In this document: in pieces, positions 2,737 through 5,260 of the stretch | How positions within the stretch are numbered: position 1 is the first letter of the stretch | Layout of the letters: each line of letters starts with the position of its first letter | From: Mucilaginibacter sp. PAMC 26640 | GTDB lineage: Bacteria > Bacteroidota > Bacteroidia > Sphingobacteriales > Sphingobacteriaceae | Length of the DNA stretch: 64,000 nt | Assembly: GCA_001596135.1 (NCBI GenBank) | Contig: CP014773.1 | Location: forward strand, 2,728,001-2,792,000 | Direction of reading: 5' to 3' | Notes under the pieces: model-generated | What the model was told of the DNA's origin: nothing | The model's database searches: none | The model's input: only the letters and a program-made list of their open reading frames with translations | Program-made: the position numbers and the translations under genes

Positions 2737-4818
2737 TTATAAATAACTCATCAACACAACTTCGCTTAGCATAATTTTGTGGTTATTGATAACTGATTTG
2801 TCAACAAATTCTTTGTCAATACCGGCAAGGGTGTTAAACACAATTTTGCCATCTGCTTTAGTGATTTTAAAAGCAATAGGAATTTCGTAGCTGCCTGCTT
2901 TTAATCTTACTGTTGGGGAGTAGTCTACCAGTGCCCTTTTTGCTTCTGCATCTAAAGCATTACTTACACCTCTTGTTACCGCCACGTTACCTATCTTGTT
3001 GTATTTTACAGTAAATGCGATGAATAGCTTCCCGGTTGTTTGGTTGTCGTGTTCTCTTGCTGGATATCTGATAGTTCTGGCCAATTCCTTATTAAAACTA
3101 CTTATAAAAGTTTGATTGTTGGCACCTATTGGCAAGGGTGGTTTAACTGCTGGTGGCGGAAATTTAATGACTTTAACTTTTGGTGGCGCCACGCCAACTT
3201 TTGGGGGTGCCGGTGGAGGAGGGGGCTGGTTATAGATTTTTCGCTGTGCTGCAATTATCCCTATCACTTGCATTTCTCCTATATAATTTGCTGTTTTTAA
3301 GCTTTTGGGCGTTGCGAAGAATACGGAATTTTCGCCAAGGATAAAAAACTTGACCCCCATTTTATGATACCCGGCTTTGTCTTTAATCGGATACGCAAAT
3401 TTTTCAAGTTCTGCTTTCAAAACGTCGCCAAATATATTTGCATTGTTACCGGCTACTGCTACATCGCTAATACGGCCATTTTCATTCAGTTTAAAATTAA
3501 CTATCAATGAGGCCTTTAATTTTTTACTTAGTGCCACGGTAGGATACTTTACCGACCGACTAATAAACTGGGCCAGTTGCAAATATGGTTCATTAAGGGG
3601 TACAGGGGGCGGTGGTGGAGGTAATTGTGGGTTGTTACTAAAGGCTTCGTTAGATTTTGATGTCATTTTAAGATATGCCATCATCTCCGCTTTTTTAAAT
3701 TGATAGCCGTATTTATCCTTTAGTAATTTACGGTCGGCATTGGTTGCTGAACTACTGTTGAAAAGTTGCTGATGACCGCTTTTACTGGTGATAGTTACTG
3801 TAATGTAAGGGGCTTTTTTATCTATAAGGTAGCAGTTTTCCTGTAAGGAGAAGTCTTTACCGAACACGGTGGGAGGTCGCATGGCAAAAGCAGTGTCTCT
3901 CAACTCTGCAACGGGTCGCTTTGGCGACAGATCGATTAATGCATAATCTTTACTAAACACGAGTGTGGATGCGCACAGCATACCCGCACATAGCGGTACT
4001 GCGGCCAGGTATTTTAGCCTTGCTAATCTGCCTGATCTTTTTTGGTTTAACATGATAATTCTCTTTTTTAGAAGGTTATAATTAAAGAAAGAATGTGCAA
4101 TAGGCGATCCCTGAATGCCGTAAGCGTTACTAAGCAAAAAGGATGAGTAAGTAAGTGCATCGCTCTCTTTAGCCGCTGTTTGCTCATCGGCTATATATTC
4201 GTGAATGGTGCGCAGACTGCGTTGCAGCAGGTAAATGAAGGGGTTAAACCAGCTGACTACCTTGATCAGTTCTATAAAAATGATATCCGCAGAATGCTTT
4301 TGGCGAATGTGTACCAATTCGTGCGCAATGATGGTTTCCGACTGTGGTACCGCCGTGCCAATGAAAAGGTAATTAAAGAAAGAAAAAGCGGTATTTTCCC
4401 CGTTGAGCTGAATTATTTTATAATTGGAATTGGTTAGTGTACTTTCTGTACGGGTTAATAAAAATAAGCGGAATAAACGATAACAAAGAACAATCAAAGA
4501 TAATACCGCCCCTATGATATAGATGTAGAGCAGTGCATCCTGTAAGGTAAATTGGGGAGCAGGTTCCTCAATAATGATCTCGGGTATTGGCGCATTATGA
4601 TAAACCGGGGCTGTATATGCCACCTGTTGAATTTGCGGTTCGGCATGCTTTAAAATGCTCAGTTGTGTTACCGGCAAAACAAATGCTGCCAGGCAGCTAA
4701 AAAGCAGGTAGGCGCGGCCCAGCACGTAGTACGTTTCGTTATTTAAAAACAAGCAATAGCATAAATAAAATACCCCCAGGTAAATATTCGCTTCAACAAG
4801 GTAGTGTAGCCAGTTCAT
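2737..4818 (-). CDS. BlaR1/MecR1-like M56 metallopeptidase with TonB-type C-termini
   Basis: A 693-residue inner-membrane sensor peptidase. Hydrophobic helices lie at about 5-25, 33-52, 95-120 and 275-292. The zinc site HELVH is at 166-170, with HEYIADE (206-212) as the downstream ligand region, as in M56 peptidases. The periplasmic part carries two proline stretches, each followed by a region resembling a TonB C-terminal domain (around residues 410-500 and 590-660, for example KLFIAFTVKYNKIGNVAV). In the Bla/Mec paradigm such a protein cleaves the BlaI partner on sensing a periplasmic signal; the ligand here is unknown, no penicillin-binding sensor domain is present, and no beta-lactamase lies nearby. 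It overlaps blaI by 4 bases. Confidence 0.85.
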   Translation of the reverse strand: MNWLHYLVEANIYLGVFYLCYCLFLNNETYYVLGRAYLLFSCLAAFVLPVTQLSILKHAEPQIQQVAYTAPVYHNAPIPEIIIEEPAPQFTLQDALLYIYIIGAVLSLIVLCYRLFRLFLLTRTESTLTNSNYKIIQLNGENTAFSFFNYLFIGTAVPQSETIIAHELVHIRQKHSADIIFIELIKVVSWFNPFIYLLQRSLRTIHEYIADEQTAAKESDALTYSSFLLSNAYGIQGSPIAHSFFNYNLLKKRIIMLNQKRSGRLARLKYLAAVPLCAGMLCASTLVFSKDYALIDLSPKRPVAELRDTAFAMRPPTVFGKDFSLQENCYLIDKKAPYITVTITSKSGHQQLFNSSSATNADRKLLKDKYGYQFKKAEMMAYLKMTSKSNEAFSNNPQLPPPPPPVPLNEPYLQLAQFISRSVKYPTVALSKKLKASLIVNFKLNENGRISDVAVAGNNANIFGDVLKAELEKFAYPIKDKAGYHKMGVKFFILGENSVFFATPKSLKTANYIGEMQVIGIIAAQRKIYNQPPPPPAPPKVGVAPPKVKVIKFPPPAVKPPLPIGANNQTFISSFNKELARTIRYPAREHDNQTTGKLFIAFTVKYNKIGNVAVTRGVSNALDAEAKRALVDYSPTVRLKAGSYEIPIAFKITKADGKIVFNTLAGIDKEFVDKSVINNHKIMLSEVVLMSYL

Positions 4819-5192
4819 TGTTTTTTGTTTTTAAGGTTATTTATGAAGTCAGTAAGCTCGTCGAGTTCCTTTAGTCCAAGGTTTTTTTCGTCGGCTATGA
4901 ACGATACCAGGCTTTTGTACGAATCGCTGAAGTAGTTCTTCATCAGTTTATCGAAAGTGAATTTCTTATAGTCGTCCTCGCTAATAACCGGGAAGTATAC
5001 GTGCGAATTCCCGTAAGCCTTGTGATCGATGAATCCCTTACCTTCCAACACCCTTACCACAGTAGATACCGTATTGTAAGCAGGCTTAGGTTCGGGGATT
5101 TTTTCAAGAATGTCCTTTATTATACCCTTGTTTAACTGCCAGAGGATCTGCATGATCTGCTCTTCAGCTTTCGTCAGCTCTTTAACTTTCAT
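4815..5192 (-). CDS. blaI: BlaI/MecI-family transcriptional repressor
   Basis: A 125-residue winged-helix repressor. The N-terminal half shows the family signature LTKAEEQIMQILWQLNKG followed by PAYNTVSTVVRVLEGKGFI, the recognition helix and wing; the C-terminal helices form the dimer and protease-sensitive region. The paired M56 peptidase (4-base overlap, same operon) is the presumed inactivator. Three AACTAT-N4-RTAGTT dyads lie directly upstream and overlap its promoter, so autorepression is very likely. The symbol names the family, not a proven role in beta-lactam resistance. Confidence 0.9.
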   Translation of the reverse strand: MKVKELTKAEEQIMQILWQLNKGIIKDILEKIPEPKPAYNTVSTVVRVLEGKGFIDHKAYGNSHVYFPVISEDDYKKFTFDKLMKNYFSDSYKSLVSFIADEKNLGLKELDELTDFINNLKNKKQ

Positions 5193-5196
5193 AGTA

Positions 5197-5260
5197 AACT
5201 ATTTTTATAGTTAGGCTAAGGTATAACTATTTTAATAGTTTGCAAACTATTTTTGTAGTT
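5197..5260 (-). promoter_or_regulatory. Three BlaI-type operator dyads over the blaI promoter
   Basis: Three 16-bp dyads share the form AACTAT-N4-(A/G)TAGTT: 5197-5212, 5225-5240 and 5245-5260. On the minus strand a TTTG at 5246-5243, a 19-bp spacer and TACCTTAG at 5223-5216 match the Bacteroidota TTTG-N19-TAnnTTTG promoter with one mismatch. The middle dyad fills the spacer, the upstream one touches the TTTG, and the third covers the predicted start of transcription and ends four bases before the blaI ATG. That geometry is what an autorepressed operon should show. The sequence match is direct; binding by BlaI is inferred. Confidence 0.75.

Follow-up and report, generated by a model that had tools for sequence, protein, structure and literature searches.

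Three conserved dyads interleaved with the predicted promoter of a blaI–M56 operon in Mucilaginibacter sp. PAMC 26640

The blaI–M56 operon and its promoter region

The window, a 64,000-nucleotide stretch of the Mucilaginibacter sp. PAMC 26640 chromosome, carries on its minus strand a gene for a BlaI-type repressor (4815..5192; 125 residues; Penicillinase_R family, PF03965) followed by a gene for an M56 metalloprotease (2737..4818; 693 residues) that overlaps it by 4 bases. Residues 6-118 of the repressor match the BlaI/MecI/CopY profile PF03965 at 98.2 bits, well above the cut-off of 22.6, and its nearest solved structure is that of MecI (1okr, E 2.7e-10). The M56 protein matches PF05569 (55.7 bits) and PF03544 (34.4 bits); its M56 domain contains the HExxH motif typical of BlaR1 and MecR1, in the form HELVH, and it has TonB_C-like domains. 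The divergent gene upstream of blaI is dprA.

M56 and TonB_C were the only Pfam domains above cut-off in the M56 protein, with no penicillin-binding (class D beta-lactamase-like) sensor among them, and the blaR1_generic profile reached 23.7 bits against a cut-off of 400. Because this sensor domain was not found, the protein is not classed as BlaR1. The dipeptide at which the S. aureus repressor is cleaved, Asn101-Phe102, aligns to Phe-Ile in the window's BlaI and so is not conserved. In BlaR1/MecR1–BlaI resistance systems the repressor controls a beta-lactamase or PBP2a gene; a genome search for class A beta-lactamases (PF13354) revealed no such arrangement here, the nearest matches lying about 1.2 and 2.8 Mb from blaI, in agreement with an earlier remark that no beta-lactamase gene is near the operon. 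The stretches fetched around both matches contain no dyad of the kind described below. Control of a class A beta-lactamase by the window's BlaI was rejected on account of this distance and of the dyad-free surroundings.

Three dyads (inverted repeats) precede blaI, at the places given in a first-pass annotation of this DNA, and share the word AACTAC/T-N4-RTAGTT. Dyad 1 (5245..5260, minus strand; AACTACAAAAATAGTT on that strand, AACTATTTTTGTAGTT on the plus strand) lies just upstream of, and overlaps, a -33 element TTTG (5243..5246, minus strand), the first two T of which are the last two bases of the dyad. Dyad 2 (5225..5240, minus strand; AACTATTAAAATAGTT, or AACTATTTTAATAGTT on the plus strand) is placed 20 bp from dyad 1 and fills the spacer between the promoter elements. 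Dyad 3 (5197..5212, minus strand; AACTATAAAAATAGTT, or AACTATTTTTATAGTT on the plus strand) covers the predicted start and leader and ends 4 nt before the blaI ATG at 5192. Read along the minus strand, the order is thus dyad 1 (5260-5245), TTTG, dyad 2 (5240-5225), the -7 element TACCTTAG (5216..5223), dyad 3 (5212-5197) and the ATG. The same annotation had described a minus-strand promoter, TTTG-N19-TACCTTAG, with the middle dyad inside its 19-base spacer (5242-5224), and this description holds.

TTTG and TAnnTTTG separated by about 19 bp form the promoter pattern of the Bacteroidota primary sigma factor, sigma-ABfr, and the pattern found here predicts the start. The last two bases of the window's -7 element do not match TAnnTTTG; the consensus in relatives is TACCTTTA (TAnnTTTG), and many orthologues have a fuller form, TACCTTTA, TACATTTG or TAAATTTG, at the equivalent place. 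A promoter study in F. johnsoniae gave the TAnnTTTG consensus and a numbering convention that places its G at -5 (PMC6847099). With that convention, the promoter spacing puts the transcript +1 near 5211, giving a predicted leader of about 19 nt before the ATG. On this numbering dyads 1, 2 and 3 would span, in order, roughly -49 to -34, -29 to -14 and -1 to +15.

These positions bear on whether the dyads work as hairpins in the leader or transcript RNA and not as DNA operators. The 83-nt stretch containing all three does fold better than its shuffles (z -2.8), as would be expected of any inverted repeats, but dyads 1 and 2, being upstream of the predicted start, would not be transcribed, and the dyad word also occurs before unrelated genes. 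Taken by itself, the leader shows no better folding than its shuffles (z -0.27), on which ground the hairpin reading was ruled out; it is scarcely credible.

Rarity and conservation of the dyads

The 5.6 Mb genome has five exact copies of the motif AACTAT-N4-RTAGTT, three of which are the window's dyads, while the other two (L001, L002) fall inside long open reading frames. A relaxed word, ACTAY-N4-RTAGT, has 21 places. Among the 15 whose surroundings were read, ten are inside open reading frames, three are again the window's dyads, one (L299) precedes a doubtful open reading frame, and one (L303) falls between genes, about 185-205 bp from its two neighbours. The exact and relaxed counts therefore indicate, for the places read, that the motif marks the blaI promoter and has no scattered regulon. 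The genome search that had been proposed to list the regulon thus showed the motif not to be randomly spread, and the predicted regulon is essentially the blaI promoter alone; the window's operon looks purely self-regulating.

The region was compared across 80 genome loci of relatives, together with further relatives' loci. An orthologue set was drawn up of 58 distinct upstream regions whose genes are at least 70% identical to the window's blaI. At least three exact AACTA-N6-TAGTT dyads are present in 56 of these 58 regions, consistent with the family's habit of keeping an inverted-repeat operator at its own promoter, and in 55 of the 58 a pair of dyads is spaced by exactly 20 bp. In the 40 regions that align without gaps, the mean information content is 1.83, 1.89 and 1.91 bits per base over dyads 1, 2 and 3, whereas the flanking stretch, from 60 to 20 bp ahead of dyad 1, averages 0.17. 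The promoter elements are kept in an identical interleaved arrangement with the dyads: in the orthologue alignment each T of TTTG carries 2.0 bits and its G 1.8 bits, and the T, A, T and T positions of the -7 element carry 2.0 bits. Chance clustering of the dyads was ruled out by the genome motif count and by this conservation. The sites, the predicted promoter, the gene order and their conservation can all be read directly from the sequences.

All 80 relatives have an M56 match downstream of blaI. In five loci (L021, L023, L034, L040 and L051) the best M56 match is well downstream and does not adjoin blaI, which suggests tandem M56 genes or a gene inserted in the operon. The N-terminal half of the M56 protein was found in 80 of 80 relatives, whereas the same search detected the C-terminal half, which is periplasmic and TonB-like, in 46; the latter's relative scarcity is as would be expected of a fast-changing sensor part.

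The three dyads do not behave alike. The 20-bp pair recurs ahead of blaI relatives from Pedobacter, Bacteroidales and Aminicenantes, its register thus being kept across phyla that are far apart, and most Pedobacter orthologues have dyads 1 and 2 and lack dyad 3. The distance between dyads 2 and 3 (n=55) is 28 bp in 39 orthologues, 29 bp in eight, 34 bp in five, 33 bp in two and 22 bp in one, and 49 of the 55 have dyad 3 at 4 nt from the ATG. Given this variable distance, with dyad 3 fixed by the ATG, dyad 3 is more probably a separate block at the start than a third element of one cooperative array. Taken with the Pedobacter pattern, the spacing also makes dyads 1 and 2 look register-locked and ancestral, and dyad 3 looks like a later, lineage-specific addition at the start site.

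The first-pass annotation had taken the three dyads to imply tight cooperativity, a conclusion that the varying distance between dyads 2 and 3 and the tie of dyad 3 to the ATG do not bear out. That all three form one cooperative array, as it proposed, would accord with their joint retention in 56 of 58 orthologues and with the dominance of the 28-bp spacing (39 of 55). The other spacings of 22, 29, 33 and 34 bp, the fixed 4-nt distance from the ATG in 49 of 55 and the absence of dyad 3 from most Pedobacter orthologues argue against it, and we consider it unlikely. A register-locked pair plus a start-site block fits the sequences better than three cooperating sites.

Four BlaI–M56 pairs and their operator words

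The genome contains three further PF03965 genes of the BlaI kind, each adjoining an M56 gene, so that there are four BlaI–M56 pairs. The M56 protein adjoining blaI-2 (L173 4166-6498, C2:780165-782497) combines TonB_C and a TonB-receptor Plug in one chain. Orthologues of BlaI-2 have the operator word AACTAA-N4-TTAGTT, while for BlaI-3 the word is TACGA-N5-TCGTA, in two dyads spaced by about 19-20 bp, and BlaI-4 has a pair of TACG-N8-CGTA dyads with a 24-bp spacing. The tandem dyads of the TACGA/TCGTA type at the two further BlaI–M56 pairs at L178 7059-9307 and L179 4068-6107 are conserved in relatives.

BlaI-2 is 55% identical to the window's BlaI (BlaI-1), the recognition helices of the two are almost the same, and the AACTA-N6-TAGTT frame is common to the sites of both. 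It is thus conceivable that the dyads are operators whose main repressor in the cell is another paralogue, BlaI-2 or a mixture, in cross-wired circuits. Against this, the inner position of the dyads differs cleanly between the groups: the form AACTAY...RTAGTT is found at 167 of 172 exact blaI-1 orthologue sites and at 1 of 49 blaI-2 and linked sites, a comparison left uncorrected for genome kinship (Fisher p about 1e-41, counting related species as independent). Residues 51, 58, 62 and 65, at the helix end and in the wing, also differ between the BlaI-1 and BlaI-2 groups and may have a role in operator specificity. Cross-wiring is accordingly regarded as improbable, and the window's own BlaI is preferred as the repressor of its operon.

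Further AACTA-N6-TAGTT dyads precede two GLPGLI genes, a TPR-protein gene and an FtsX/MacB-type permease gene (L153, L158, L156 and L154, each at 1501-1516; genome positions C2:1997972, 4895482, 4188775 and 2391059). One of the GLPGLI genes is followed by an outer-membrane receptor-like gene. In the 14 stretches of relatives chosen for tandem dyads away from blaI-1, these dyads always stand before members of the GLPGLI, TPR or FtsX families or before blaI-2. When the genes were taken first, an exact dyad was found upstream of 18 of 19 TPR and 8 of 22 GLPGLI homologues, with about 0.01-0.02 expected from shuffles. Most of the GLPGLI, TPR and permease dyads carry the BlaI-2 word, which makes these genes more likely targets of BlaI-2 than of the window's BlaI. 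Judged from their sites, the GLPGLI, TPR-protein and FtsX-permease genes are therefore likely to constitute a BlaI-2 envelope regulon.

A wider reading can be put forward tentatively, at somewhat less than even odds: the four BlaI–M56 pairs would be parallel circuits insulated from one another by slight differences between their operator words, with that of the window controlling only itself with the M56–TonB protein as its output, and BlaI-2 controlling an envelope regulon. If so, the M56–TonB output might, for example, adjust TonB-type energy transfer or receptor traffic, and the BlaI-2 envelope regulon would comprise the GLPGLI proteins, the TPR protein and the FtsX-type permease.

Proposed autorepression and comparison with known systems

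The three dyads, which dozens of related soil bacteria keep nearly unaltered, are very probably the sites at which the BlaI-type repressor shuts off its own operon; the earlier proposal that they are BlaI operators autorepressing the BlaI–M56 operon is supported by the conservation and the gene order. In the proposed mechanism, BlaI dimers would bind dyads 1 and 2, 20 bp apart, on one face of the DNA, so that the -33 element and the spacer would be covered and RNA polymerase kept off. Dyad 3 would take another dimer, which would block the start site and leader, and the resulting negative feedback loop would keep blaI–M56 expression low. A probability of about 0.88 is assigned to this reading, in which the dyads are operators of the adjoining BlaI, the pair excludes polymerase and dyad 3 blocks the start. 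Induction may follow the BlaR1 pattern: the M56 protein would perceive an envelope signal with its periplasmic, TonB-like part and switch on its HExxH protease, after which BlaI would be inactivated and the operon induced. Since no beta-lactam sensor was found and the cleavage dipeptide is not kept, this protease step is proposed by analogy only. From the arrangement of the locus we infer that BlaI binds and represses, as well as the part played by dyad 3, the signalling by the protease and the signal itself.

The analysis provides a precise operator and promoter map for a BlaI–M56 pair of the Bacteroidota, where such pairs are numerous, and indicates that the window's pair is not a beta-lactamase switch. 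The motifs also allow predictions of the genes bound by particular BlaI proteins, among them those of a possible envelope regulon under a sister repressor. In the literature searched, nothing direct was found on a published Bacteroidota BlaI operator, a BlaR1–TonB protein or a link between GLPGLI and BlaI. The window's system is nevertheless strongly supported, on comparative grounds, as a conserved autoregulatory BlaI switch of known kind.

The pair resembles S. aureus BlaI/MecI with BlaR1/MecR1 (PMC9834060; PDB 1okr/1sax) in its repressor family and in the adjoining M56 gene with an HExxH motif. It differs in that no beta-lactam sensor was detected, the cleavage dipeptide is not conserved and no resistance gene is linked. 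In the B. licheniformis bla divergon, blaP and blaI-blaR1 are controlled through the operators OP1-OP3 (PMC3305447). Inverted repeats for a dimeric BlaI, three operators per control region and an autoregulated operon of blaI and an M56 receptor are features that the window appears to share. The three B. licheniformis operators serve two divergent operons, including that of the beta-lactamase, whereas all three here would serve one promoter; the operator word is TTACATATGTAA-like there and AACTAY-N4-RTAGTT here, and TonB-like domains stand in place of the penicillin sensor.

Of the C. thermocellum repressors BlaI_0696 and BlaI_1845, the latter bound a GACTAT motif, and each regulates itself through two inverted-repeat pairs (PMC8457756). 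That system belongs to another phylum, has two dyads where three are found here, has partners described as BlaR1 and does not have a Bacteroidota promoter. Its words GACTAT and GTCTAT are nonetheless similar to that of the window's dyads, and the window's system, as predicted here, shares with BlaI_0696 and BlaI_1845 their autoregulation, small regulon and ordered pairs of inverted repeats.
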